Source of the DNA: Candidatus Nitrotoga fabula
Lineage (GTDB): Bacteria > Pseudomonadota > Gammaproteobacteria > Burkholderiales > Gallionellaceae
DNA length: 45,845 nucleotides
Assembly: GCF_905221025.1 (NCBI RefSeq)
Contig: NZ_CAJNBL010000027.1
Coordinates: 1-45,845, forward strand
Direction: 5' to 3'
Shown here in pieces: positions 389-18,779 of this stretch. Each line of letters begins with the position of its first letter. Position 1 is the first letter of the stretch. The position numbers and the translations under genes are program-made. Below the pieces are notes generated by a model that saw only the letters and a program-made list of their open reading frames with translations, did not search any database and had not been told where the DNA came from.

Positions 389-469
389 GACATCGTCACC
401 ATCACACAGCAGGAGATCGACACCGCCATGGAACGATTGCACAACAGACCCAGAAAACGACTTGTATAG
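389..469 (+). pseudogene. IS30-family transposase C-terminal remnant (left copy)
   Basis: A 26-codon stretch reads VTITQQEIDTAMERLHNRP followed by RKRL, then TAG. This is the conserved IS30 C-terminal helix (QxEID...LNxRPRKRLGYxTP). The same segment, longer, recurs at 15850-16113 in the same orientation. Here the homology stops right after RKRL, so the element was cut by a later rearrangement. No inverted repeat or target duplication was recognised beside it. Confidence 0.7.
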
Positions 470-539
470 TAAATTTCTAACTAGATATTCGTCAAGTCAG
501 GTGTTGGACTTTAAATTTGAATTCGCGAAAGGAAAAACC

Positions 540-1388
540 ATGAAAATTTTCGTTTATGGCACGCTGTTAAGAGGCATGCTACGTGCACCTGTTTTAAATG
601 ATTCCGAATTTCTTGGTTCTGGATTCATCCAAGGCAGTTTTTATGATCTAGGAGAATATCCTGGAGTTTGTGAAGGAAAAGATCCCATATATGGTGAGAT
701 CTATCAAGTCGACCAGAATACCCTTAAAACGCTTGATCAGATTGAGGGTTACAACCCGGCTGCAGAAAGACAGTCCCTGTATGTGAGGAAAAATGTTTTT
801 GTAACCCCCTTCGATGGTGGCACTCCGATAGAAGCTATCACTTATTTTTATAACGGAGATATCACAGGCTGCAATCTCATCGCTTGCGGGGACTATCGAC
901 GTTACATCATGGAAAATACTTCTGATGACCAATGGTATCTTGCCTATGGTTCAAATATGAATCATAAGCAAATGATAGATCGCGTAGGCGCCGCCAAGCA
1001 GGTCATCGCTGGATATGTGAATGGTTATCAATTGGTATTTAATAAATGCGCTGAAGATGGCGGGGTGGCTGAAAATATCGGCTATATTAAGGGAAATCGA
1101 TGTCCGGTTTTAGCATACCAGTTAACGAAAGAGCAATTAAACGAACTGGATTTCTATGAAGGAGCGGGCACGCATTACATCAGGTTGGGGCTCCAGTTTA
1201 ATTTTATGGATAAAGAAAAACGCCGATTTAAACTCGGACATGTTTATATAGCACACCCTAGTATGGTTACCGAATATAAGGTGCCATCAAAAAATTATTT
1301 AAACGCCATTAGGGATGGTTATATTCAAAATGGTTTTAAAACAGGGGAATTAATGTTTTATGCAATGCACCCCTCAGAGTTATTTTGA
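540..1388 (+). CDS. two-domain gamma-glutamylcyclotransferase (AIG2/GGCT)-like protein, copy 1
   Basis: Start ATG 540 is preferred over upstream in-frame codons because GAAAGG lies 7 nt upstream and copy 2 starts at the same residue. The 282-aa product carries two GGCT/AIG2-like modules. The first opens with VYGTLLRG (the phosphate-binding YGxLxxG loop) and has LDQIEGY, where the Glu is in the position of the catalytic acid. The second, after about residue 130, opens with LAYGSNMN and has LDFYEGAG in the equivalent place. GGCT-fold enzymes release 5-oxoproline from gamma-glutamyl peptides or amines, but the substrate here is unknown. The downstream gene is a tandem duplicate 23 bp away. Alternative: a non-enzymatic AIG2-like protein. 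Confidence 0.8.
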   Translation: MKIFVYGTLLRGMLRAPVLNDSEFLGSGFIQGSFYDLGEYPGVCEGKDPIYGEIYQVDQNTLKTLDQIEGYNPAAERQSLYVRKNVFVTPFDGGTPIEAITYFYNGDITGCNLIACGDYRRYIMENTSDDQWYLAYGSNMNHKQMIDRVGAAKQVIAGYVNGYQLVFNKCAEDGGVAENIGYIKGNRCPVLAYQLTKEQLNELDFYEGAGTHYIRLGLQFNFMDKEKRRFKLGHVYIAHPSMVTEYKVPSKNYLNAIRDGYIQNGFKTGELMFYAMHPSELF

Positions 1389-1411
1389 TGAATTCAGGAA
1401 GCAAAAAAACC

Positions 1412-2227
1412 ATGAAAATTTTCGTTTATGGCACGCTGTTAAGAGGTATGCTACGTGCACCTGTTCTAAATGATTCCGAATTTCTTGGTTCTGGATTCAT
1501 CCAAGGCAGTTTCTATGATCTGGGGGAATACCCTGGGGTTTGTGAAGGAAAAGATCCCATATATGGTGAGATCTATCAAGTCGACCAGAATACCCTTAAA
1601 ACGCTTGATCAGATTGAGGGTTACAACCCGGCTGCAGAAAGACAGTCCCTGTATGTGAGGAAAAATGTTTTTGTAACCCCCTTCGATGGTGGCACTCAGA
1701 TAGAAGCTATCACTTATTTTTATAACGGAGATATCACAGGCTGCAATCCCATTACTTGTGGGGACTATCGACGTTACATCATGGAAAAATCCCCTGGCGA
1801 CCAATGGTATCTTGCCTATGGTTCAAATATGAACCAACAGCGAATGGAGGGTCGCGTAGGGGAGTTCCAGCAGGTCATCGCTGGATATCTGGATAATTTT
1901 ACATTGGTATTTAATAAGCGCCTTGCAGGAGGGGGGGTGGCCGCAAATATTGGTCATTTTGCTGGATGTAAATGTCCTGTTGCTGCATACCGGGTAACGA
2001 AAGATCAATTAAACAAGCTGGATTTTTATGAAGGTGAGGGCAAGCATTACATCAGACTTGGACTCCCGTTTTATTTTATAGATAATGGGAATCCCCAGTA
2101 TAAACTCGGACAAGTTTATATAGCACATCCGGATATGCTTATTGAGGGTCAGCCAACAGAACAATATTTAAACCTCATTAGAACAGGCTATGAACAACTT
2201 GGTTTTGCTTGGGATTTCCTCGTTTAA
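1412..2227 (+). CDS. two-domain gamma-glutamylcyclotransferase-like protein, copy 2 (tandem duplicate)
   Basis: ATG 1412 corresponds exactly to the start of copy 1 and follows a GGAAG motif. The first approximately 400 bp are nearly base-for-base copy 1 (VYGTLLRG and LDQIEGY conserved, only scattered third-base changes). The second domain keeps AYGSNMN and LDFYEGEG but is clearly diverged in sequence. The product is 271 aa, slightly shorter at the C-terminus than copy 1. Its TAA lies inside the motif GTTTAACC that begins the repeat at 2222, so the repeat insertion may have set the present end of the protein. The pair is probably cotranscribed. The uneven divergence suggests gene conversion between the 5' halves. 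Confidence 0.8.
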   Translation: MKIFVYGTLLRGMLRAPVLNDSEFLGSGFIQGSFYDLGEYPGVCEGKDPIYGEIYQVDQNTLKTLDQIEGYNPAAERQSLYVRKNVFVTPFDGGTQIEAITYFYNGDITGCNPITCGDYRRYIMEKSPGDQWYLAYGSNMNQQRMEGRVGEFQQVIAGYLDNFTLVFNKRLAGGGVAANIGHFAGCKCPVAAYRVTKDQLNKLDFYEGEGKHYIRLGLPFYFIDNGNPQYKLGQVYIAHPDMLIEGQPTEQYLNLIRTGYEQLGFAWDFLV

Positions 2228-3663: not shown

Positions 3664-6294
3664 TTGAACCAGATGATTACATTTGGCCTTCATCTTGATG
3701 GTCAGCGTACTGCCCAACCGAAAAATGTTATTGGCTTTGCGATTGTCGGGCCTCTTGGGTTTCTGGACATTCTCGAGACTCACTTGGGCTTGTTGGCCAA
3801 TCGACTTTCGGAAGCATCAAGAGCGGTTCAATACCGTGCGTGCCTCGAAAAATGTGACGACGAGAATCGTTTTTATCATCGTTCCTTTATCGTTGATCCT
3901 TTTGGTACTGCTGCAACGCTATTAAAATGGCGTGACGATTGGGTTCTGCATGGCTGGAATGGAACTGCCGTAAGCGGTGCTCCCCATCGTGTAACAGATA
4001 TGGCCGATATCGAGAAGCTGGCCGTAAGGATGGTAGATGCAGGAGTCAGTCAACGTTTGATAGCGGTTGTGAATGCATTGCAGAATCGAAGCGTGCCGAT
4101 TGATAGTGTTTCTCTGGTTGAGCACATTGAGGTTTTCCCGAGTCTCTGGCAGAAGGTTCTGAGTTTTCTTGAAGTTCAGCCTGCACCCGAACCGACACCG
4201 AATGGGTCTGGTTTTCTCCGTCATGTGCAGGGTGCATTGTTGGCTGCTCGTGCTGGGCAGCAGTATGAAAAGCTAGCGTGGCAGGATGATGGCTCAGTCC
4301 TGATTGTTCAGGCCGAAAGCCAGTCTCTGGCAGCGCAGTGGGTCGCGACAAGCATAGAAGACAGCACTCCTGCGCTTCTTGTCTGTGAGCATGATGGCGA
4401 TCAACTGGATGCTTATTTATCAGCGGCTAAACTTCCTCGTCAGGGTTTCAAAGAGAGTAGCGCCTTTCGGCCTGCGTTACAGGTGCTCCCTTTAGCACTG
4501 GAACTTTTGTGGGATCCGTTAAATGTTTATGCGCTGGTGCAGTTTCTGACGCATTCGGTCTGCCCAATCCGCCCAGTGGCTCGTCAGTTGATAGCAGAAA
4601 AGGTTGTCGATGCACCAGGCATTACTGGTGTACGCTGGAAGCAAACTCTCGCCAAAATCGATGAAAAAGTCGGGGTAGATCTCCAAGCTCAGGTACGTGA
4701 AGAAATTGCTACCTGGCTGGGTCATCAACGTTACTCCCTTACCGAGGGTGCGCCAATTCCTTCGGTGATAGCACGCGTTGCTAAATTAGCGGAGTTTTTT
4801 CAGAAGCGGGTTGGAGACGAGGATGCCAGTCGCAGTAGTGCATTTATGGCAGGACTGTCGCAGTGCAGAGCCAGTCAGCGTACCCTGGCTGAATTGTTAG
4901 CTCAGGGACAGAAAATCATCAGCGCTCGGCAATTGCAGAAAGTTGTAATTCAATCTACAGCTAATGGTTCGGCAAACCCGTTATGGCCAGCTCAAGTTGG
5001 CGCAAAATTATGTGCGACAATTCCAGGGGCAGTTTTTGAACCTGTTGCGAAGGTGATCTGGTGGCAGATGCAGATGCCAGTGTTGCCGGGTTCCCTACCT
5101 TGGTCTGAAGCGGAGGTGAGTGCACTGGCAAATTCTGGGGCTATGTTGCGTAGCGCAACATCTCGTTTGGACCAAACTGTCCAAAGCTGGCTACGCCTGG
5201 TTCTAGCAGCCCAGGAAAAACTTATACTGGTTTTGCCACCCCCTGATACAGAAGTGCATCCTTTGTGGCAGATGCTCTGTGCAGTCGTTGATGATGTTCC
5301 GGTATTAGGGCTTGAGCAGTACCTTGCTGATGGCGGCAACGCAATGACTAGACAAACATATCGTCCCTTGCCTCAGGCCAAGCGTTGGTGGCAGCTTCCA
5401 AAGGACCTGGTTGTTACACTGAGGGAGAAGGAATCATTTACTAGCCTAGAGAAATTCCTGTTTAATCCCTACCACTGGCTTTTGCAGTATCCGGCAAAGT
5501 TACAACCCTCAAGGTTGCTGTCATCAGGGAGTGACTTCCGGATGATGGGTTTACTTGCCCATGGCCTTGTCGAGCGCTTTTACTTCGGTGCCGATTCCCT
5601 GAAGATGGACGATGAGGCATTCAATACATGGTTTTCAGAGACGTTTGAATCAATTGTCGATGAAGAAGGTGCGCATTTACGGATGTCTGGTCGTAAAGCC
5701 GATTTGGAAAGCTTCCGGTTTCGTCTTGAACGCGCAGTAAAAGCGTTGCGGCAACACATCACGAATGCAAAAGTGATAGAAGTTTGTCCGGAGGAAAAAC
5801 TATTTGGTCATTTCCCCGGTGGGGAGTTAGGTGGACCTGCAGATTTATTGTTGCGAACCTCAAACGGGCATACGGCAATCGTCGATATGAAGTGGGGTGG
5901 CTGCAAGAAATATGGCGAAAAGCTCAAGAACAATCAGCACTTGCAGTTGGCAATCTATGCCGAACTTCAACGTCAGACTACAGGCCAATTCCCAAGCGTG
6001 GCATATTTCATTTTTGACGATGCCCAAATGCTGGCACCTGATAACACGACCTTTGAGAATGCTAGGGTGGTTCCCTCAATAAATGGAGAAAATACAGCCC
6101 AGCTATATCAGCGTTTCATTGAAACCTGGCGCTGGCGTGCAAGTCAGGTTGAGGGCGGAGCCTTCGAAGTTGTATTAACCGGAATTTCTGATCATGACAT
6201 TGAAGAATTACCGGCAGAAGGGTTGGCTGGCGAAGTTCTGAATGTGGCCTATAACGAATATCGTTCCCTGGCGGGCTGGGGAAGCAAATCATGA
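3664..6294 (+). CDS. AddB/RecB-like PD-(D/E)XK nuclease family protein
   Basis: An 876-aa protein (TTG 3664; ATG 3673 is an equally possible start). The C-terminal part holds a RecB-type nuclease core: GGPADLLL, then TAIVDMKWGG around residues 738-746 (Asp and Lys of the D...DxK signature), then NNQHLQLAIYAEL (the Qhxx[hY] motif that follows in RecB/AddB nucleases). The rest is a long helical, helicase-like region without a clear Walker A, as in AddB, where the helicase domain is inactive. The four-cysteine iron-sulphur arrangement of classical AddB was not seen. Its stop overlaps the start of the AddA-like gene by 4 bp (ATGA), so the two are translationally coupled and probably form a complex that degrades or processes DNA ends. 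Divergence from housekeeping AddAB and the island context suggest phage defence. Confidence 0.8.
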   Translation: MNQMITFGLHLDGQRTAQPKNVIGFAIVGPLGFLDILETHLGLLANRLSEASRAVQYRACLEKCDDENRFYHRSFIVDPFGTAATLLKWRDDWVLHGWNGTAVSGAPHRVTDMADIEKLAVRMVDAGVSQRLIAVVNALQNRSVPIDSVSLVEHIEVFPSLWQKVLSFLEVQPAPEPTPNGSGFLRHVQGALLAARAGQQYEKLAWQDDGSVLIVQAESQSLAAQWVATSIEDSTPALLVCEHDGDQLDAYLSAAKLPRQGFKESSAFRPALQVLPLALELLWDPLNVYALVQFLTHSVCPIRPVARQLIAEKVVDAPGITGVRWKQTLAKIDEKVGVDLQAQVREEIATWLGHQRYSLTEGAPIPSVIARVAKLAEFFQKRVGDEDASRSSAFMAGLSQCRASQRTLAELLAQGQKIISARQLQKVVIQSTANGSANPLWPAQVGAKLCATIPGAVFEPVAKVIWWQMQMPVLPGSLPWSEAEVSALANSGAMLRSATSRLDQTVQSWLRLVLAAQEKLILVLPPPDTEVHPLWQMLCAVVDDVPVLGLEQYLADGGNAMTRQTYRPLPQAKRWWQLPKDLVVTLREKESFTSLEKFLFNPYHWLLQYPAKLQPSRLLSSGSDFRMMGLLAHGLVERFYFGADSLKMDDEAFNTWFSETFESIVDEEGAHLRMSGRKADLESFRFRLERAVKALRQHITNAKVIEVCPEEKLFGHFPGGELGGPADLLLRTSNGHTAIVDMKWGGCKKYGEKLKNNQHLQLAIYAELQRQTTGQFPSVAYFIFDDAQMLAPDNTTFENARVVPSINGENTAQLYQRFIETWRWRASQVEGGAFEVVLTGISDHDIEELPAEGLAGEVLNVAYNEYRSLAGWGSKS

Positions 6295-9200
6295 GCGAAG
6301 TAATAAATCCGAAAATTGTTTTTTATAGTGCTGGCGCTGGAAGCGGTAAAACTTACAAACTAACCGAGCTACTTCATCACGGGTTCACCGCCGATGGGGT
6401 GCGTCCATCTGGGGTGATTGCGACAACTTTTACCAAAAAGGCTGCAGCAGAACTACGGGAGCGTGTTCGGGAGCACCTCCTTCAGCAGGGGGATTTCGAG
6501 CGTGCTAGTGCTATGGGGGAAGCACGTATAGGGACCGTTAACAGCGTCTGCGGTCAGCTATTGACCCGCTTTGCATTTGAAGCAGGAATGCCTGCCGATC
6601 AGCTGGTTCTCGAGGAAGGCCAGGCTGGGATGCTACTGGGCAAGGCGGTTGATTCAGTTATCGAACCTGAAAAGCTGCGCGAGCTACTGAGTCTTGCAAG
6701 GCGATTGGGTCTGGAAGACGACTGGAAAAGTGCACTTCAAAATCTAGTCAATCAGATTCGTAGTAATGATATCCGGTTGAGCAAGGTAGCCGGATTCGCT
6801 AATGAGAATGCTGATGACCTATTAAAGCACTTTCCGAAGCCGGTGTCGGGGGATCTGAGCCTACAATTGCGCTCGGCGATCCATCTGGCCCTGCCGAAAG
6901 TGGAAGCGGTTGCCGAATCTGGTAATAAGAAAAACACGCAGAGATATCTGGATCTGCTGAAAGATTTTTCCAGAAAACTCGAAGAGGGAAGCATCGGTTG
7001 GGGCGAATGGGTCAAACTCGGCAAAGAAAAGCCTGAAGTTGGTTTGCTTCCAACGATTGAGCCTATCGCCGACTTGGCAATGCGCGTTGCCGAACACCCC
7101 AGCCTGCAACAGGATATACGCCGATATCTGGTACTCATGTATGAGCTTGCCGTTAATGCTCTAGAGGTTTATAGCCATCTCAAGCAGGAGATCGGTGCGC
7201 TCGACTTTACGGATCAGGAACACAAACTTCTTGAGCTTCTGGACCATCCTGAAGTTACCGCCGTGCTATCGGATGAAATTGATCTGCTGATGGTAGATGA
7301 ATTCCAGGATACCAGCCCGATACAGCTGACCCTGTTCCTGAAATTGACCAGATTTGCCAGGAAAGTGTACTGGGTTGGGGACATCAAACAGGCTATCTAT
7401 GGGTTCAGAGGCAGCGATACGGAGTTGATGCAGAAAATTCTTGAGGTACTGCCGCAACTTGACGGTATCAAGGATGTGCTACCAAGCTCCTGGCGGTCGC
7501 GTAGCGAATTGGTACATGTGGTAAATGACGTATTTTCTCGGGCCTTTGCCAATACGCTCGGACGTGAGGATGTCGTGCTCGAACCCAAACGGCTCGACCC
7601 GCTCCCTGGCGCTGCCTTGGAAAACTGGGTTCTTGAAGGTAAAAATCGCGACGAAGAAGATTCAGCGCTGGCTGCAGGGGTGCGTGATCTGATTGGAAGC
7701 CAGTATCAGGTGTTTGATAAGGCTAGCAAGAAGTTACGTCCTGCACGCTATAGTGATGTTGCCATTCTTTCACGTTCGAATGATGCAGTGAAATCAATTG
7801 CTGCTGCGCTGTCGGTACAAGGCATACCCGTAGCCGTTGCTCAATCGGGTCTCATGGCAACGCCAGAATCCGTACTTACCCTCGCTTGTCTTAGACGGTT
7901 GAATGACCCAGGTGACACGATTGCTACTGCTGAGATCGTCTCTCTGGTGGACTGTACTGAGCCTGAGGTGTGGGTGGCGGATCGATTGCGGTATTTGCAG
8001 TCGGGTGGCCATAAGAATCTGTGGCTGGAAGAAGCCATATTAGGCCATCCAGTGCATCCAATTCTCGAAACTATTGCACAACTACGCTCGGCTCTCCCTG
8101 TATTGGCACCGCGAGAAGCTTTAGGCAACATCGTTGCAGCTTGTCAAATTCCCCAGGTCGTTTTGCAGTGGTGTCGTAACCCTGATCGTGCCCGCGTTCG
8201 CCTCGCAAATATTGAAGCGCTGCTTGAATTGGCTGAACAATATGAAGATCTATGCCGTAATGAACAGCATGCTGCATCAGTTTCCGGTCTTATTCTATGG
8301 TTGGAAGATATTGCAGCCAATGACCAGGATATGCTGGCTGAGCCGGCGATTAATGCAGTTAAAGTATTGACGCACCATGCCTCAAAAGGACTGGAATGGC
8401 CTATCGTTTTGCTGACGGATCTGGCTGCGTCGGTGCGGGATAACCTTTGGTCCATTTCTGCACGCTCTGGAGCAGAGTTTGATGTTCAAGCTCCTTTGAA
8501 AGATCGCTTTATTCGTTATTGGCCATGGCCTTTTGGTGCCCAAAAAATGGTGCCTGTTGCAGAGACTATTGGTCAGACGGAGGTGGCGAAGGCTTTTAAG
8601 GCGGCAGCTATAGAAGAAGCTAAACGGCTACTTTATGTAAGCATGACCCGTGCTCGAGATCTAATGATTCTGGTACGTACGACCCGGAAGATTAGCGGGG
8701 AATGGCTCGAAAGTGTAGATTCTCCCTGGCTGTTAAATGAGCCTGAAAGCGATGGCATTACCTTGCCATCGGGGAAATTCTTGTCGGCTATTTATAAACA
8801 AATTCCACCAGCGGCGCTTTCTGAAGAACTACCTATTGAGAATAATGTACCTCTGTTTTGGCGCGAACGACCAATGGCAAATCACTCGTTCCTGAACCAG
8901 ACCTTTAATCCATCGGCGGCAATAGTGCTGCATGGCGGTGAGGCTATTGAGCAGTGTCGAATTGGTGAACGGATTGCACTACATGGTGGTGGCGACAAAT
9001 CAGTTGTTGGTACGGCGATTCACGCGTGTATTGCATTCATGTTCGGTGATTTTTCTGCTAAGCCAGAGATATCAGATATCGAAGCCATACTTTCAGGTTT
9101 TGCTGTGCAGGACCAGCTATCTGCAGTGGCACTTCATCAGCAGATAACGGCATTTGTGGAGTGGGTTGAAACACGTTGGCCTGTTGCGATCCCCAAAGCG

Positions 9201-9464
9201 GAGCTGCCTATCCAGTCAATTATTCAAACTGGGCAAATTCTTAATGGTCGGATTGATCTGCTGCTGGAATTGGAGGAAGGATGGATACTAATTGATCATA
9301 AGTCATCTCAGCTCGCTTCAGATCACTGGACGAATCTTGCAAAGGACTATTCTGGTCAGCTTGAGGGTTACGCTGATGCAATTCTGCGAGCGAGCGGGAA
9401 GCCTGTTCTGGAGTCATGGTTGTATTTGCCGGTAGCTGGTGGAGCTGTTCGAATAAATGGGTAA
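6291..9464 (+). CDS. UvrD/AddA-like SF1 helicase-nuclease
   Basis: A 1057-aa protein with a full SF1A helicase set. Walker A is AGAGSGKT (residues 14-21), motif Ia TTFTKKAAAELRERV, Walker B DEFQDT (about 336-341), motif III VGDIKQAIYGFRG and motif IV SSWRSRSEL. Motif V is THHASKGLEWPIVLL (about 695) and motif VI LLYVSMTRARD. The C-terminus adds a second PD-(D/E)XK nuclease: GRIDLLLELEEGWILIDHKS (about 985-1006), then QLEGYADAIL. This is the AddA architecture. With the upstream AddB-like subunit it gives a two-nuclease helicase complex acting on double-strand DNA ends. An older, diverged second copy of the recombination machinery is the alternative to a defence role. Confidence 0.88.
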   Translation: MSEVINPKIVFYSAGAGSGKTYKLTELLHHGFTADGVRPSGVIATTFTKKAAAELRERVREHLLQQGDFERASAMGEARIGTVNSVCGQLLTRFAFEAGMPADQLVLEEGQAGMLLGKAVDSVIEPEKLRELLSLARRLGLEDDWKSALQNLVNQIRSNDIRLSKVAGFANENADDLLKHFPKPVSGDLSLQLRSAIHLALPKVEAVAESGNKKNTQRYLDLLKDFSRKLEEGSIGWGEWVKLGKEKPEVGLLPTIEPIADLAMRVAEHPSLQQDIRRYLVLMYELAVNALEVYSHLKQEIGALDFTDQEHKLLELLDHPEVTAVLSDEIDLLMVDEFQDTSPIQLTLFLKLTRFARKVYWVGDIKQAIYGFRGSDTELMQKILEVLPQLDGIKDVLPSSWRSRSELVHVVNDVFSRAFANTLGREDVVLEPKRLDPLPGAALENWVLEGKNRDEEDSALAAGVRDLIGSQYQVFDKASKKLRPARYSDVAILSRSNDAVKSIAAALSVQGIPVAVAQSGLMATPESVLTLACLRRLNDPGDTIATAEIVSLVDCTEPEVWVADRLRYLQSGGHKNLWLEEAILGHPVHPILETIAQLRSALPVLAPREALGNIVAACQIPQVVLQWCRNPDRARVRLANIEALLELAEQYEDLCRNEQHAASVSGLILWLEDIAANDQDMLAEPAINAVKVLTHHASKGLEWPIVLLTDLAASVRDNLWSISARSGAEFDVQAPLKDRFIRYWPWPFGAQKMVPVAETIGQTEVAKAFKAAAIEEAKRLLYVSMTRARDLMILVRTTRKISGEWLESVDSPWLLNEPESDGITLPSGKFLSAIYKQIPPAALSEELPIENNVPLFWRERPMANHSFLNQTFNPSAAIVLHGGEAIEQCRIGERIALHGGGDKSVVGTAIHACIAFMFGDFSAKPEISDIEAILSGFAVQDQLSAVALHQQITAFVEWVETRWPVAIPKAELPIQSIIQTGQILNGRIDLLLELEEGWILIDHKSSQLASDHWTNLAKDYSGQLEGYADAILRASGKPVLESWLYLPVAGGAVRING

Positions 9465-9863: not shown

Positions 9864-9884
9864 AAAGCACTAGCGGTGCTTTTT
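9864..9884 (+). terminator. short hairpin with T run ahead of the MTase gene
   Basis: AAAGCAC, a 5-nt loop and GTGCTTT, followed by TTG. The stem is only seven pairs and the T run is part of it, so termination is plausible but not certain. It would separate the AddAB-like unit and VOC relic from the MTase operon, implying that the MTase operon has its own promoter in the AT-rich 30 bp that follow. Confidence 0.4.
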
Positions 9885-9915: not shown

Positions 9916-12582
9916 ATGAACATTGGTCAGGTTGAGGAAAAAGTTAAGGCACTCGTTGCCAATGTTAATAACGAATCATTTCTCTATGATTTGCTTGATT
10001 GTTATGGCAAGCCCAAAGCATCTATCACTCGTCTAAAAATCGTAGGTAAGGGAAGCTATAACCTCTCCAAGAACGATGGTGAAGTTCTTTGGAAGAAACA
10101 GGTCTATTTCAAGTCCACAAACAGTGACAAGCTACTGTCTGTGATTGATGAGATGAAGGATGCTGATGTGGTAGAGAAGCACCAGCCACGTTTCATCATT
10201 GCCATCAATCAAACTCACCTTCTTGCCATTGACACCAAGACTGAAGACACCTTGGATGTTGCCCTGGCTGAACTCAACAAGAAGTTTGACTTCTTTCTTC
10301 CTTGGGCTGGATTAGAAAAAGCACAGGCCCAAAGTGAGAACCCTGCTGATGTCAAAGCAGCAGAAAAAATGGCTAAGTTGTTTGACCTGCTAAGGGACAA
10401 CAATCCAGCCAAGACCAAGCAAGAAATTCATGTACAGAATGTGTTCCTCTCACGAATTCTGTTCTGTTACTTCGCTGAAGATACTGGCATATTTGAGCCA
10501 AAGCTTTTCACCAATCACATTGCCTCACACACCACAGAAGATGGCAGTGACCTGGATGATTATCTAGGCAAGGTCTTTGATGTGATGAACCAGGAACACC
10601 GTGATGGTCTTCCTGCCTATCTCACTGACTTTCCTTATGTGAATGGTGGTCTGTTCGCTGACAAGCTCCCGATTCCGAAATTCAACAGGAAATCTCGTGC
10701 CATGCTCATTGAGTGTGGCTCGGACCTGAACTGGTCAGAAATCAACCCTGACATCTTTGGTTCAATGATTCAAGCGGTGGTCCATCCCGACCAGCGCGGC
10801 AACATGGGCATGCACTACACGTCAGTGCCAAACATCATGAAGGTCATTGAACCTCTCTTCCTGAACGAACTGAAGGAAGAATTTGAGAAGCACGCAGACA
10901 ACAAGAACAAGCTTGAACTACTTCTTCTCAGACTTGAACATCAGAAGATTTTTGACCCTGCTTGCGGATCAGGAAACTTCCTCATCATTGCCTATAAGGA
11001 ACTTCGCCAGCTTGAAATGGAAATCTTCAAGCGATTGCAAGAGATTTCCAAAGAAGGCTTGATTCCTCTTTCCAGAATCCGACTTTCCCAGTTCTATGGC
11101 ATTGAACTTGATGACTTCGCTCACGAAGTAGCCATTCTGTCTTTGTGGCTTGCAGAGCATCAGATGAACATGAAGTTCAAAGCTACCTTTGGACATTGCA
11201 ATCCCGCACTTCCACTTAAGAACAGTGGCAATGTTGTTCATGGCAATGCTCTTAGGGTTGATTGGAATGATGTTTGTCCACATGCGGAATCAAGCCAAGT
11301 CTTTGTTCTAGGAAACCCACCATACCTTGGCGCAAGCCTTCAATCAGAAGAGCAGAAAGAAGATATTGCCCTGGTTTTTGATGGTATTGATGGCTACAAA
11401 AGCATTGACCTGATTGCAAGCTGGTTCTATAAGTCTTCTAAATATATTTCCAAGAACAATGCCAGCGCTGCATTTGTATCAACAAATTCAGTTTGCCAAG
11501 GAGAACAGGTTGGTCTTCTTTGGCCCCATATTTTCAAACAAGATGTTGAAATCAGTTTTGTGCATCAATCCTTCAAGTGGGAAAACAATGCAAAAAACAA
11601 AGCAGCAGTCTATTGCGCAATCATTGGCATCAGGAATACTTCAACTGCTGACAAGTTAATTTTCAAAGATGGACTTGCTCAAAAAGTAGAAAACATCAAC
11701 CCCTACCTTGTTGCCACTAAACGCAACATTATTCTGCCAAAAAGACAAAAGCCGCTTTCCAAGTTGCCTGCCATGACCTACGGAAGTAAGCCTACAGATG
11801 GCGGCCATCTCATACTTGAGCCAGAGGAAAAAGAAGCACTTCTTGAAATTGCACCAAAATCCAAGAAGTTCTTGAAGAGGTACATTGGCGCATCTGAACA
11901 CACCAATAACAAAGAAAGATGGTGCCTTTGGATTGATGACAGCAATCTTGAAGAAGCCTTGTCAATTCCTGAGATAAACGATCGCATTAAAAGGGTAAAA
12001 GAATTTAGATTAAATAGCACCAAAGCAGCAACTAGAGCTATAGCTGCCTCCGCACACCGCGTTGGTGAGCCACGCTATATAGCAACAAACTCTATTCTTG
12101 TACCCATTCATGGCTCGGATCGACGGCCATATATACCATTTGGATTCCTTGACAAATCATTTGTGGCGTCCAATGCCACTCAAGTTATTTACACCAGTGA
12201 AATTTATGTGTTTGGTTTGATTTCATCTTTAATGCACAACGTGTGGATCAAGGCTTCTTGCGGAAAAATCAAAGAAGACCCACGATATTCATCAACATTG
12301 GGATACAACAACTTCCCTGTTCCTTCACTGACAGATCAGCAAAAAGGGGTCATCTCTAATTTGGTTCTGGAAATATTAGGCGCAAGAGAGCAATACCCAG
12401 AATTGAGCTTATCGGATTTGTATGATCCCGATTTGATGCCACCAGATTTGATGGATGCACACGCTCGCTTAGATGAGGTCGTTGAACGTTGCTACAGGGC
12501 TAAAGAATTTACCAATGATGAAGATCGCCTTGATTACCTCTTTAAACTCTACGAAAAAATGACAGGGACCCAGAATGCCTAA
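9916..12582 (+). CDS. MmeI/type IIG-like N6-adenine DNA methyltransferase of a restriction-type system
   Basis: An 888-aa protein. ATG 9916 is chosen for GGAA 7 nt upstream and because upstream residues look like translated spacer. The methyltransferase core has DPACGSGNF (residues 347-355, SAM-binding motif I) and NPPY (467-470, motif IV of N6-adenine amino-MTases). The block VSTNSVCQGEQVGLLWP is typical of MmeI-like enzymes. The N-terminal 300 residues contain ESFLYDLLDCYG, LWKKQVYFKS and VFLSRILFCYFAEDTGIF, shared with large stand-alone DNA MTases of defence loci. The classical MmeI nuclease motif is not obvious. The C-terminal part (from about 600) likely holds target recognition. The gene overlaps the helicase gene by 8 bp, so MTase, helicase and GIY-YIG protein form one operon. 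Probable role: modification of host DNA and recognition for restriction. Confidence 0.85.
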   Translation: MNIGQVEEKVKALVANVNNESFLYDLLDCYGKPKASITRLKIVGKGSYNLSKNDGEVLWKKQVYFKSTNSDKLLSVIDEMKDADVVEKHQPRFIIAINQTHLLAIDTKTEDTLDVALAELNKKFDFFLPWAGLEKAQAQSENPADVKAAEKMAKLFDLLRDNNPAKTKQEIHVQNVFLSRILFCYFAEDTGIFEPKLFTNHIASHTTEDGSDLDDYLGKVFDVMNQEHRDGLPAYLTDFPYVNGGLFADKLPIPKFNRKSRAMLIECGSDLNWSEINPDIFGSMIQAVVHPDQRGNMGMHYTSVPNIMKVIEPLFLNELKEEFEKHADNKNKLELLLLRLEHQKIFDPACGSGNFLIIAYKELRQLEMEIFKRLQEISKEGLIPLSRIRLSQFYGIELDDFAHEVAILSLWLAEHQMNMKFKATFGHCNPALPLKNSGNVVHGNALRVDWNDVCPHAESSQVFVLGNPPYLGASLQSEEQKEDIALVFDGIDGYKSIDLIASWFYKSSKYISKNNASAAFVSTNSVCQGEQVGLLWPHIFKQDVEISFVHQSFKWENNAKNKAAVYCAIIGIRNTSTADKLIFKDGLAQKVENINPYLVATKRNIILPKRQKPLSKLPAMTYGSKPTDGGHLILEPEEKEALLEIAPKSKKFLKRYIGASEHTNNKERWCLWIDDSNLEEALSIPEINDRIKRVKEFRLNSTKAATRAIAASAHRVGEPRYIATNSILVPIHGSDRRPYIPFGFLDKSFVASNATQVIYTSEIYVFGLISSLMHNVWIKASCGKIKEDPRYSSTLGYNNFPVPSLTDQQKGVISNLVLEILGAREQYPELSLSDLYDPDLMPPDLMDAHARLDEVVERCYRAKEFTNDEDRLDYLFKLYEKMTGTQNA

Positions 12583-14494
12583 CATCGTTGAAGTTACCTA
12601 TGCCCAGACTGGTCAAAGCACCAGCACCAATAAGTACGGCATGCGTGACATGCAAGATCGTGCTTTTGAAGCTCGCAATGCACAATACCTGCTTCTGAAA
12701 GCACCTCCAGCTTCTGGTAAGTCTCGCGCCTTGATGTTCATCGCACTGGACAAGCTCATCAATCAAGGACTGTCCAAAGCCATCATTGCTGTCCCTGAAA
12801 AGTCCATTGGCGGCTCTTTTGATAGCGTAGAACTCAGCAAGTTTGGCTTCTTCTCTGATTGGGTTGTAGAGCCAAAGAACAACCTTTGCACACCTGGTGG
12901 TGAGCAAAGCAAGGTCAAAGCTTTTGTGGACTTCATCAAGGGACCAGACAAGGTTCTTGTCTGCACCCATGCAACTTTGCGGTTCGCTTTTGAAGCTGTT
13001 GAGGAAACCGACTTTGACAATGTGCTGCTTGCCATTGACGAATTCCACCATGTCTCTGCTGATGGTGAAAACCGTCTTGGTGAACTGCTTCGCTCAGTGA
13101 TGGCCAAGTCAGATGCACACATCGTTGCAATGACTGGCTCTTACTTCCGTGGGGACAGTGTGCCGGTTCTGCTTCCTGAAGATGAAGCCCAGTTCACCAA
13201 AGTCACTTACAACTACTATGAGCAACTGAACGGCTACACCTTCCTCAAGTCCCTTGGTATCGGCTACCACTTCTACCAGGGCAAATACACCAGTGCTATT
13301 GATGAGGTTCTGGACACCGATCAGAAGACCATCCTGCACATCCCCAATGTGCAGTCTGGTGAGTCCACCAAGGACAAGTATGACGAGGTGGATCGCATCC
13401 TAGACATCATCGGCACCGTCACCCATCGTGATTCTGATACCTGTGTCATCCACGTCAAACGGCATGGTGATGGTAAGGACTTGAAGGTTGCTGACCTCGT
13501 GCATGATGAACCCAAAGCTCGAGAACGAATCGTTGAATACCTCCGCAAGATTGAGAAGCCAGAAGACATGGATCTCATCATTGCTTTGGGTATGGCAAAG
13601 GAAGGTTTTGACTGGAAATTCTGTGAGCATGCCCTGACTGTTGGCTACCGTGGATCACTGACCGAAATCATCCAAATCATCGGACGATGCACACGCGATA
13701 GCAACAACAAGAGCCACGCCCAATTCACCAATCTGATTGCTCAACCTGATGCAGAAGATGACTTGGTGAAGCTCTCAGTCAACAACATGCTGAAAGCTAT
13801 TACCTGCTCCTTGCTGATGGAACAGGTGCTTGCTCCCAATTTCAAGTTCAAGACCAAGCAAAGCGATGACGACAAGAGCACCGATACCGAAATCAAGGTT
13901 CGTGGCCTGAAAGAACCTTCCTCCAAGCGAGTGAAGGACATCATTGAATCAGACTTGAATGACCTGAAAGCTGCAATCCTGTCTGACGACAAAATCATCA
14001 AGGCACTACCTGGCAATGTTGATCCAGAAGTCATCAACAAGGTGATGATTCCAAAAATCATCAAGGTCAAATACCCGGAACTCACCCCTGAAGAAGTGGA
14101 AGAAGTTCGTCAGCATGTGGTTGTTGATTCAGTCATCAAGAATGGCGAAATCAAACAGGAAGGCGACAAGCGCTTTGTTCGTATGGCTGACAAGTTCATC
14201 AACATTGATGACTTGCATATTGACCTGATCGATCGTGTCAATCCTTTCCAGAAGGCATTTGAAATTCTGTCCAAGTCTCTCACCACCAAAGTCTTCAAAG
14301 TCATCCAAGACACCATTGAAGCTACTCGTGTGCAGATGAGTGATGAAGAAGCCATCTTGCTTTGGCCAAAAATCAAAGAGTTTGTGAAGACACACTGCAA
14401 GGAGCCAAACCTCAACTCCTTGGACCCACTTGAGCGGCGCATGGCTGATGCTGTTGTCTATCTGAAAGCTCAACGCAGACAGCAAGGGGTGTAA
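12575..14494 (+). CDS. SF2 (DEAD/DEAH-type) helicase of the MTase cassette
   Basis: A 639-aa SF2 translocase. Motif I is APPASGKS (43-50), motif II is DEFH (155-158), motif III has MTGSY, and motif VI is QIIGRCTRD. The linker region LIIALGMAKEGFDWKFCEH resembles motif IV/V of restriction-type helicases such as the DEAD/DEAH ATPases of type III and DISARM-like systems. The last approximately 200 residues are charged, helical and unassigned. No nuclease motif was seen, so cleavage would have to come from the neighbouring GIY-YIG protein or the MTase N-terminus. The start overlaps the MTase stop; the next gene starts 2 bp after its TAA. Confidence 0.85.
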   Translation: MPNIVEVTYAQTGQSTSTNKYGMRDMQDRAFEARNAQYLLLKAPPASGKSRALMFIALDKLINQGLSKAIIAVPEKSIGGSFDSVELSKFGFFSDWVVEPKNNLCTPGGEQSKVKAFVDFIKGPDKVLVCTHATLRFAFEAVEETDFDNVLLAIDEFHHVSADGENRLGELLRSVMAKSDAHIVAMTGSYFRGDSVPVLLPEDEAQFTKVTYNYYEQLNGYTFLKSLGIGYHFYQGKYTSAIDEVLDTDQKTILHIPNVQSGESTKDKYDEVDRILDIIGTVTHRDSDTCVIHVKRHGDGKDLKVADLVHDEPKARERIVEYLRKIEKPEDMDLIIALGMAKEGFDWKFCEHALTVGYRGSLTEIIQIIGRCTRDSNNKSHAQFTNLIAQPDAEDDLVKLSVNNMLKAITCSLLMEQVLAPNFKFKTKQSDDDKSTDTEIKVRGLKEPSSKRVKDIIESDLNDLKAAILSDDKIIKALPGNVDPEVINKVMIPKIIKVKYPELTPEEVEEVRQHVVVDSVIKNGEIKQEGDKRFVRMADKFINIDDLHIDLIDRVNPFQKAFEILSKSLTTKVFKVIQDTIEATRVQMSDEEAILLWPKIKEFVKTHCKEPNLNSLDPLERRMADAVVYLKAQRRQQGV

Positions 14495-14496
14495 TC

Positions 14497-15666
14497 GTGG
14501 AGAAGGATGCTCTTCTAAAAATTCTGGATGATGATGACCTTGGACTACTGAACATCAAGCCCAAGCGATCTTCCATCACGGTTGATGAACGTCTGCTCCA
14601 GTCCTTCCAGCAGATAAACGATTTCTACCGTCAGCATGGCAAGGAGCCTGAGTCCAATCCATCCAACATCCTTGAGTTCCAGCTTTTCAACAGGCTCAAG
14701 GGGCTTCGTGCCAGCAAGGAAAAATGCGAAGCCTTGCAGGAAGTGGATGAATTTCACTTGCTCACCTTCATAGAGCCAGAAAAGCCCATCACGTCTGTTG
14801 CTGACATCTTCAGTGATGACTCCTTTGGTCTGCTGGATGATGAAGCTGAAAGTATTTTTGACCTCAAGCATGTTCCAAAGTCACCTATGGAGATGCCTGA
14901 GAAGATTGCACAGCGCAAACGATGCAAAGACTTTGACCAATTTGAACACCTTTTCAAGCAGTGTCATGCTGAACTGACTTCTGGTGTCCGTGAAGCCAGG
15001 CAGTTCACTGGTGAGCAGCAAATCAAGCCAGGGCACTTTTTCGTGCTGCATGGGGTCATGGTCTATGTATCTGAAGTGGGTGAGAAGGAAGTCAAAAATG
15101 GGAAGGTAAATGCTCGGCTACGGTGCATCTTTGAGAATGGCACTGAGTCCAACATGCTTCTTCGGTCACTGGCTACTGAACTTTACAAGGATGAGACTGG
15201 TCGACGTATCCTCGATCACCATGAGAAAGCTCTTGAGGCACTTGAGCAAATCAAGGCTGAAGATGAAAAGACTGGCTACCTCTATGTGCTTCAGTCTCTC
15301 AGCCAAGAAACTAACATTGCCAGCATTGAGAACCTCTTCAAGATTGGCTACTCAACAGTGCTAGTGCAAGAACGCATCAAAAATGCTGCTGAAGAACCTA
15401 CCTATCTGATGGCGCCTGTGAAGGTGGTTGAAGTTTTTGAGTGCTACAACCTGAATCCTCAGAAATTTGAACTGCTACTCCACACCTTCTTTGGGAAGGC
15501 CTGTCTAAATGTGGATGTCTTTGACAAGACAGGAAAGCGGTTCTCACCAAGAGAATGGTTCGTTGCACCACTGCGCATCATTGAAGCAGCAGCCAACATG
15601 CTTATCAGTGGTGAGATTGTGAACTACAGATATGACCCAGATTCATCTGGAATCGTAGAGAGATAA
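14497..15666 (+). CDS. GIY-YIG (T5orf172-type) nuclease-domain protein, third gene of the MTase cassette
   Basis: A 389-aa protein from GTG 14497, 2 bp after the helicase stop. The C-terminal domain (from about residue 258) reads GYLYVLQSL, then LFKIGYST, then a conserved Arg-containing VQERIKNAAEEPTYL and FELLLHTFFG. This is the GIY-YIG fold in its T5orf172/Mug113 variant (GYLY for GIY, FKIGYS for YIG). The N-terminal 140 residues are helical and contain FNRLKGLRASKEK, a helicase-associated-type segment. The middle part is unassigned. As the only clear endonuclease candidate of the operon it probably delivers cleavage, guided by the MTase and driven by the helicase. That assignment is inference. 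Confidence 0.8.
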   Translation: MEKDALLKILDDDDLGLLNIKPKRSSITVDERLLQSFQQINDFYRQHGKEPESNPSNILEFQLFNRLKGLRASKEKCEALQEVDEFHLLTFIEPEKPITSVADIFSDDSFGLLDDEAESIFDLKHVPKSPMEMPEKIAQRKRCKDFDQFEHLFKQCHAELTSGVREARQFTGEQQIKPGHFFVLHGVMVYVSEVGEKEVKNGKVNARLRCIFENGTESNMLLRSLATELYKDETGRRILDHHEKALEALEQIKAEDEKTGYLYVLQSLSQETNIASIENLFKIGYSTVLVQERIKNAAEEPTYLMAPVKVVEVFECYNLNPQKFELLLHTFFGKACLNVDVFDKTGKRFSPREWFVAPLRIIEAAANMLISGEIVNYRYDPDSSGIVER

Positions 15667-17642: not shown

Positions 17643-18779
17643 TCAGCCGAAAGTCCTCACTGCTTTTTGACCGGCATCCGGTGCTGCTTCTGGCATCCAG
17701 CGGCCATAATTCCTACGAATCATTCCAACGTCACTGTGCCCCATTTGCTGGGCAACCCACATTTCCGGCTCTCCGGATGACACCATCATGGATGCGTAAG
17801 TATGGCGCGTCATATAGGCCCGTCTGACGCGCACGCCTGCCTTTTTCATTGCAGCCTGCATCATTACCCGCACTTGCTTGTCCCCGGTGTAGCGTTTTAG
17901 CGTGAGTGGATTTTGGAATACTTCACGTCCTTGCAGGAATGTGTGCTGTTTTTGATCTTTTAATGCGGCAAGCGCGGGCGGTAACAGCTTGACCACCCTA
18001 ACTCCTGATCGAGTTTTCGGCGCTTCTGGATTGTCTGCGTTCTGGGTAAGCGCTTTGCTGACTGAGCAGGTTGCGGCTTTCATGTCTATGTCTGACCAAT
18101 CCAGCGCGATATATTCAGAAGTGCGAAGGCCAGTCCAGAGCGCGAATTGCACCAGATTTCTGGCTTGACCTGTTAAAGCCGCCAGTAGAAGAACCTGTTC
18201 CTCTTTGGTGAACGGATCCACATCATCAGACGTTTTTATCAGTTCCTTGCGTCGGTATGAGAACCCATGCAGCTCATTGGTTAATACCATGCCATCCTCA
18301 AGTGCACTCTGCAGGCCATGACGGAACACGGACAGAATGTTTGCAATCCGCTTGTTACTGGATTCAATATCTGCGCACCACTGGCGGAGGATTAATTTGT
18401 TGATTTCAGAAAGATCAAGATTGCCGAATGTTGGCAGTATCTGTCCGCGCACGATCCGTTCATAGTCTGTCCAGGTACTGCTTTTAAGGTGTGCCTTTTG
18501 CCTGGCAATCCATTGTTCAAAATAATGGCCAACATTGGTTTTTATTTGTGGTGGGCAAAATTTTTCAACCCTTGGACTATCCGGGAAACTGACCGAATAG
18601 TCGAATGTTCCGTTTTCAATCGCCAGAACTACCGCGGCGCGGAATCGTTCGACTCGTGTCAGATTGGTGGGCGTGGGCTTAAGCTTGATGCGTTCGCGGC
18701 ACAGCTGCCCCTTGTACCGGAAGTTGATCTCAATGCTGCTTTCTGATGCGGCGCGGACGCCTTTCCACTCTCTACCCAT
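17643..18779 (-). CDS. int: phage tyrosine recombinase (integrase)
   Basis: A 378-aa protein reading leftward to the prophage edge. The N-terminus (IEINFRYKGQLCRERIKL, residues 14-31) is the DUF3596/Min27-type arm-binding domain. A SAM-like core-binding domain follows (HYFEQWIARQKAHLKSSTW onward). The catalytic domain shows Arg in ALWTGLRTSEYIALDW, His/Arg in MTRHTYASMM, His in QQMGHSDVGMI and the Tyr nucleophile in RRNYGRW. All expected catalytic residues are present, so the enzyme may be active. The start lies within the 3' part of the overlapping xis gene, the usual way int and xis are coupled. Confidence 0.92.
   Translation of the reverse strand: MGREWKGVRAASESSIEINFRYKGQLCRERIKLKPTPTNLTRVERFRAAVVLAIENGTFDYSVSFPDSPRVEKFCPPQIKTNVGHYFEQWIARQKAHLKSSTWTDYERIVRGQILPTFGNLDLSEINKLILRQWCADIESSNKRIANILSVFRHGLQSALEDGMVLTNELHGFSYRRKELIKTSDDVDPFTKEEQVLLLAALTGQARNLVQFALWTGLRTSEYIALDWSDIDMKAATCSVSKALTQNADNPEAPKTRSGVRVVKLLPPALAALKDQKQHTFLQGREVFQNPLTLKRYTGDKQVRVMMQAAMKKAGVRVRRAYMTRHTYASMMVSSGEPEMWVAQQMGHSDVGMIRRNYGRWMPEAAPDAGQKAVRTFG

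Follow-up and report, generated by a model that had tools for sequence, protein, structure and literature searches.

The closest described relatives of the genes considered here are DnmA (YeeA), YeeB and YeeC of Bacillus subtilis, a conserved cluster whose MmeI-type methyltransferase lacks the nuclease motif (PMC9973331, PMC7261158). A 'Type I-like' mode of action has already been proposed for it in the same two papers, following Morgan 2009, and the cluster had been noted earlier among MmeI homologues. Here we describe a trio of this kind in Candidatus Nitrotoga fabula, on contig NZ_CAJNBL010000027.1 of assembly GCF_905221025.1, whose positions 1 to 45,845 are the stretch that was analysed (the window). 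The trio encodes an N6-adenine methyltransferase (MTase), a superfamily 2 (SF2) helicase and a GIY-YIG/T5orf172 protein. It is a further case of the DnmA-YeeB-YeeC arrangement and not the new system that an initial annotation of this DNA had implied; likewise, the division of labour that had been called unlike that of Type I enzymes has a Type I-like comparison already in print (PMC7261158). What is new is that the in-built nuclease motif and the downstream helicase gene replace each other in a mutually exclusive manner, and that the junction of the MTase and helicase genes is a slot for cargo genes. The trio and its parts are laid out as follows.

9916..12582, + strand: N6-adenine MTase of MmeI architecture (DnmA/YeeA type), without nuclease active-site motif (Pfam, alignment)
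9916..10398, + strand: MmeI_N, the former nuclease domain, motif lost (Pfam, residues 12-172)
10081..10119, + strand: codons aligned to MmeI D70, E80 and K82; in the window E67, K77 and T79 (numbered from 9883)
10882..11664, + strand: MTase catalytic domain with DPACGSGNF and NPPY (Pfam MmeI_Mtase)
11719..12330, + strand: target recognition domain (Pfam MmeI_TRD)
12575..12582, + strand: MTase/helicase overlap of 8 bp, the position of the cargo slot, empty in the window
12575..14494, + strand: SF2 helicase (YeeB type), ATG start, 639 residues
12701-12724, + strand: helicase motif APPASGKS
13037-13048, + strand: helicase motif DEFH
14497..15666, + strand: GIY-YIG/T5orf172 protein (YeeC type), GTG start, 389 residues
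15274..15597, + strand: GIY-YIG/T5orf172 domain with G260, Y263, K282-I-G284, R293, E325, H329, E353 and W354

The MTase contains the five MmeI domains in their usual sequence (Pfam: MmeI_N, MmeI_hel, MmeI_Mtase with E 1.6e-106, MmeI_TRD, MmeI_C), and its sole solved relative is the MmeI structure 5hr4 (E 9.8e-200). The MmeI N-terminal domain is itself present, and just its active-site motif is gone: both against 5hr4 and when 110 MTases of the MmeI family are aligned, residues D70, E80 and K82 of MmeI, which we take to be those of its nuclease, correspond to E, K and T, which bears out the earlier remark that no MmeI nuclease motif was evident. Across this alignment, the D..E.K pattern occurs in 13 MTases, is missing in 95 and lies in an unreadable region in two. 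An N-terminal PD-ExK motif is also mentioned in PMC7261158. In a tree built without the nuclease domain, a single edge (support 0.966) parts 97 motif-less MTases, among them the two with an unreadable motif region, from the 13 motif-intact ones; although the tree is unrooted, this split fits one old loss in the sample. A Type IIG or IIL single-protein restriction enzyme, as which the MTase might otherwise be classified, was rejected because the D..ExK motif is absent in both comparisons. A PADLOC profile search, which the initial annotation had recommended, scores the MTase as REase_MTase_IIG (1010 bits), with weak partial matches to DrmMI and PglX; the same model gives 1150-1213 bits on three motif-intact enzymes, so this label is no proof of an in-built nuclease.

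How the motif relates to the partner genes was read from a survey of 299 genomes of the phylum by the Pfam MTase-domain model alone, a choice that avoids bias towards close relatives. It yielded 21 MTase places in 20 genomes, which were paired with helicases by eye and whose N-termini were read only after this pairing. All 15 motif-less MTases are followed, on their own strand and contig, by a helicase gene, and none of the six motif-intact ones is (Fisher p 1.8e-5). Four of these places (the window, one in G015 and two in G031) already belonged to a set from the order; the remaining 17 split in the same way (12 vs 5, p 1.6e-4). Two motif-intact MTases (G276, G308) sit on contigs that end soon after or inside the gene, with the helicase absent genome-wide, and without them the comparison stands at 15 vs 4 (p 2.6e-4). 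The helicase occurs in 17 of the 299 genomes, which makes a trio of disputed function common in the phylum, and in all 17 the GIY-YIG gene is directly downstream. Two of the 17, G362 and G388, have helicase pieces that start at, or at most 137 bases from, the beginning of the contig; the GIY-YIG gene follows (interrupted by one stop in G388), and no MTase reaches E<=1e-50. In G326, a GIY-YIG piece of 82 residues has no helicase in reach.

The order itself, surveyed in 200 genomes, gives the same picture. The helicase is found in 13 genomes and the GIY-YIG gene in 15, directly downstream of the helicase in 13 of 13; the two GIY-YIG genes with no helicase in reach, those of G110 and G113, each sit at a contig end. 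MTases occupy 43 places in 35 of these genomes. Fifteen motif-less ones could be aligned, ten of them with a helicase on the same contig; for three more (L145, L146, L147) the contig ends inside the MTase gene or at most 774 bases after it. The 18 motif-intact loci comprise 13 identified by alignment (the one of G145 making up two places) and five by text pattern only (L165-L169), and none has a helicase within the stretch read, which for L158 is cut by the contig end; among their genomes, only G031 and G069 carry the helicase, as part of a separate trio in each. The split trio MTases of G031 and G088, with two places each, were omitted from the motif table, and five places (L159, L170-L173) were not scored. 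G165, a candidate for a genome lacking the MTase, was rejected as such, since its MTase lies 8.2 kb upstream across cargo. The last two of the fifteen motif-less MTases, L148 and L150, are broken; the 20 kb read for each contain no helicase, and no GIY-YIG gene lies nearby. By eye, IS21-like genes follow the former, and cargo-type genes still follow the latter.

Finally, genome contigs were searched with a profile of seven aligned trio MTases, which gave 580 confirmed candidates; the best 80 of these, biased to close relatives, were taken. These have a helicase downstream in 73 loci and a GIY-YIG gene in 70; in the seven loci without a helicase the contig ends at most 1.4 kb from the MTase, and in the three further ones without a GIY-YIG gene it ends there too. 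Linkage of the trio is thus near-obligate. Neighbourhood conservation, named at the outset as a check, therefore speaks for the trio, whose homologues co-occur. This linkage is far beyond chance. The initial claim of one coupled operon is supported, with the MTase and helicase genes overlapping by 8 bp and the helicase and GIY-YIG genes 2 bp apart.

The trio's coordinates and strand, including overlap and gap, were reproduced from the window sequence, and all three open reading frames (ORFs) are open on the + strand. That of the MTase is open from a TTG at 9883 to the stop at 12582; its start is likely the ATG at 9916, from which 888 residues are counted. All four motifs read at the outset, i.e. 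DPACGSGNF, NPPY, APPASGKS and DEFH, are present in the translations. The GC skew is positive and becomes slightly negative inside the MTase gene, which would fit acquisition as a block. A scan for promoters and terminators gave signals no better than shuffled sequence.

The two partner proteins retain their key residues. In the helicase, which matches Pfam DEAD, with Helicase_C and ResIII only under the Pfam cut-off, K49, D155, E156, R371 and R374 are invariant in 84 of 84 sequences (the window and 83 of 91 ORFs chosen by length, eight being left out). The window helicase and 49 relatives gave no match to the PD-(D/E)XK family, and 50 helicases scanned singly gave helicase families and no other nuclease family, four scattered weak matches aside. 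The third protein matches MUG113 (E 2e-11) and T5orf172 (E 8.5e-11) in Pfam and has the GIY/YIG-type motifs, the arginine and the glutamate by which a GIY-YIG nuclease is recognized. G260, Y263, K282, G284, E325, H329, E353 and W354 are conserved in 76 of 76 sequences and R293 in 75 (the window and 75 of 90 ORFs chosen by length, with 15 of unusual length left out), and we take the catalytic residues to be among these; the position preceding K282 is Y in 53, H in 14 and F, as in the window, in nine of the 76. With R293 and E325 kept and the MTase motif lost, the GIY-YIG protein stands as the likely cutter, as first proposed; the opposite pattern, a nuclease motif in the MTase and a GIY-YIG protein without this Arg and Glu, was not found. 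By eye, the GIY-YIG protein is split in several lineages into an N-terminal ORF of about 80-126 amino acids and a separate nuclease ORF (L034:9930-11135; L178:7930-9136; also L063, L110, L113 and L114); the N-terminal portion could be a domain that stands alone.

Given the gene content, the loss of the MTase motif, the conserved GIY-YIG and helicase residues and the near-obligate linkage, all of which are observed, we consider it probable that the trio is a three-subunit, ATP-driven restriction-modification (R-M) system of the DnmA-YeeB-YeeC kind with a Type I-like division of labour. As inferred from its family, the MTase would read an asymmetric site through its target recognition domain and methylate adenine; on meeting an unmethylated site, it would call in the helicase, which would move along the DNA and bring the GIY-YIG protein to cut. 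Since marking of a single strand, as by MmeI, leaves one of the daughters without a mark once DNA has replicated, cutting is predicted to require two sites in a particular orientation. The nuclease once built into an MmeI-like enzyme would have been replaced in trans by a helicase/GIY-YIG pair doing the job of HsdR, i.e. by a two-piece HsdR, whose genes are never seen parted by cargo. The clean swap of the in-built motif against these two genes is an argument for seeing in them the part that does the restricting, and it points to residues worth mutating. Complex formation, translocation, cutting and protection against phages we infer, and the trio would most likely destroy unmarked foreign DNA; if so, the PADLOC Type IIG label misplaces the cutter.

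The window locus matches the B. subtilis cluster, by its published description, in gene order, motif-less MmeI-type MTase, SF2 helicase and T5orf172/GIY-YIG protein: its MTase lacks D..ExK, and the helicase gene comes first and the T5orf172/GIY-YIG gene second downstream. With MmeI itself (Type IIL/IIG) it shares the MTase, target recognition and C-terminal domains, but not the nuclease motif, the probable cutter being a separate protein and a helicase being added. Type I R-M systems (HsdM/HsdS/HsdR) similarly combine modification, recognition, an SF2 motor and a nuclease, and have RhuM and Fic/Doc-type genes alongside, as trio loci do. In the window, however, recognition resides within the MTase rather than in an HsdS subunit, and the helicase lacks the PD-(D/E)XK match that an HsdR would be expected to give, the nuclease being of the GIY-YIG type and separate from the motor.

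Several observations weigh against such an R-M system. In B. subtilis, deletion of dnmA, yeeB or yeeC left infection by three phages unchanged, dnmA deletion did not alter plasmid uptake, and phage genomes do not avoid the DnmA site (PMC9973331, PMC7261158); the portions available to us of the B. subtilis literature report neither nuclease nor translocase activity for YeeB and YeeC. Solved structures include no match to the GIY-YIG protein, and for the helicase a marginal one only. The deletion results favour a reading proposed for B. subtilis, in which the MTase is a functional orphan whose methylation serves gene expression while its two partner genes are relics. Relics would be expected to decay, however, and the three open ORFs of the window and the key residues kept across phyla speak against this, as does the finding that, in the sets examined, partnerless motif-less MTases sit at contig ends or are broken; we regard an orphan MTase as rather unlikely. 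The null results may instead reflect a decayed copy or phages outside the panel. YeeB and YeeC of B. subtilis are said to lack several stretches found in Vibrio crassostreae (PMC9973331), where, as cited second hand in PMC9973331 and PMC7261158, deletion of the dnmA and yeeB homologues increases sensitivity to some phages, a point in favour of an R-M system.

Protection could also work by exclusion, as in BREX or DISARM, whose MTases PglX and DrmMI are related to that of the window and account for its partial weak PADLOC matches: the MTase would mark self, a helicase complex would block phage replication and the GIY-YIG protein would spare phage DNA or act on RNA. Yet no other BREX or DISARM part was found among the nine window proteins scanned with PADLOC, a scan confined to the window, and in both surveys each genome with the helicase has next to it a nuclease whose active site is conserved, which makes exclusion improbable. 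A Type IV-like system that depends on modification and attacks methylated DNA has a precedent in designed fusions of GIY-YIG and methyl-adenine-reader domains, which restrict modified DNA (PMC12707154). It is very improbable here, because it would turn on DNA marked by the trio's own MTase, whose gene accompanies the other two in nearly every locus examined.

As to mobile elements, relatives of the GIY-YIG protein occur on 230 plasmid records, many near-identical, and a plasmid trio in Niallia (Bacillaceae), read as annotation, was found via the helicase. Viral contigs gave no match to the MTase and five loci with the helicase, two of which (L031, L033) start less than 600 bases before it, so that no MTase is visible; a phage collection gave two records with fragments covering 24%. 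The least credible reading is that of a mobility module, in which the GIY-YIG protein would spread the cassette as a homing-type endonuclease. This frequency of trio genes on plasmids and the name T5orf172, taken from a phage protein, might be adduced for it; the tie of nuclease to helicase gene across phyla speaks, if weakly, against it.

Besides the swap, the trio loci have a second common feature. At 87 loci, all with both genes on one strand, the distance between MTase and helicase is either small or 0.5-8 kb; slot counts omit L017 and L026, whose MTase is split. The slot measures at least 250 bases in 43 of 85 loci, and 42 of these 43 contain at least one same-strand ORF of at least 80 amino acids. 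In 35 of the 42, the first such ORF begins no more than 60 bases from the stop codon of the MTase, which it overlaps by 1 or 4 bases in 19. By comparison, the gap between helicase and GIY-YIG gene exceeds 150 bases in nine of 84 loci. Of 82 loci with the complete trio, 39 have an ORF in the slot and five in the second gap (discordant 35:1, p 1e-9), the latter being, by eye, split-off GIY-YIG N-termini or pieces of broken helicases. Close relatives differ in their slots: a RhuM-like gene is present in only one of L065 and L080 (helicases 96.5% identical) and a 277-amino-acid gene in only one of L023 and L024 (95.0%), and occupancy is unequal in 30 of 87 pairs with helicases more than 78% identical, pairs that are not independent. 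The slot is empty in the window, as it also is in L035 (Duganella; 94% in the helicase), the nearest relative.

Its contents are of recurrent kinds. Of 84 slot ORFs of at least 80 amino acids, 82 were scanned, without a helicase fragment (L062) and an ORF on the opposite strand (L111); some small ORFs of L061, L108, L109 and L113 may not be genes. The 82 include 13 RhuM, five Fic, five Schlafen AlbA_2, three YhcG, two SIR2 and two HerA proteins and singletons of HEPN, Mrr, AIPR and AbiJ-type families, 25 of the 43 slot families being among the matches listed. The PADLOC candidates PDC-S05 and PDC-S23 match 14-15 of the 82 and are probably the RhuM proteins. In two Campylobacterota, L059 (Sulfurospirillum) and L112 (Aliarcobacter), alike sets of four ORFs fill the slot, by sequence SIR2-like, HerA-like and Fic-like. 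Published accounts report RhuM and Fic/Doc-type genes within R-M loci, and the slot genes of these kinds thus count for an R-M system; the accounts also describe PrrC, which is located inside a Type IC locus and is set off once restriction is blocked. Slot genes of the relatives may be back-up defences. Tentatively, by analogy with PrrC, the junction could be a slot dedicated to the exchange of guard genes, i.e. abortive or back-up defences that would fire when the restriction complex is blocked, an idea to which we give somewhat less than even chances. If this holds, restriction would have in the trio a second, independent chassis that comes with its own guards, and new guards could be found from their position alone; the slot offers a positional handle on further defence genes. 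No mention of it was found in the literature searched, which covered few subscription journals.

Upstream of the trio, positions 3664-9464 (+ strand) encode an AddAB/RecB-like pair with a 4-bp overlap, an 876-amino-acid PD-(D/E)XK protein and a 1057-amino-acid UvrD-type helicase with a C-terminal PD-(D/E)XK domain; the pair scores far under the AddA equivalog cut-offs and is possibly a separate defence or repair module. Further upstream, at 462-2227 (+ strand), two tandem ORFs, gamma-glutamylcyclotransferase-like by eye, share a near-identical stretch of well over 100 residues in their N-terminal region. A phage-type integrase is encoded at 17643-18779 (- strand), and from 20370 onwards the ORFs look, by eye, like those of a prophage, with the trio on the integrase's other side.

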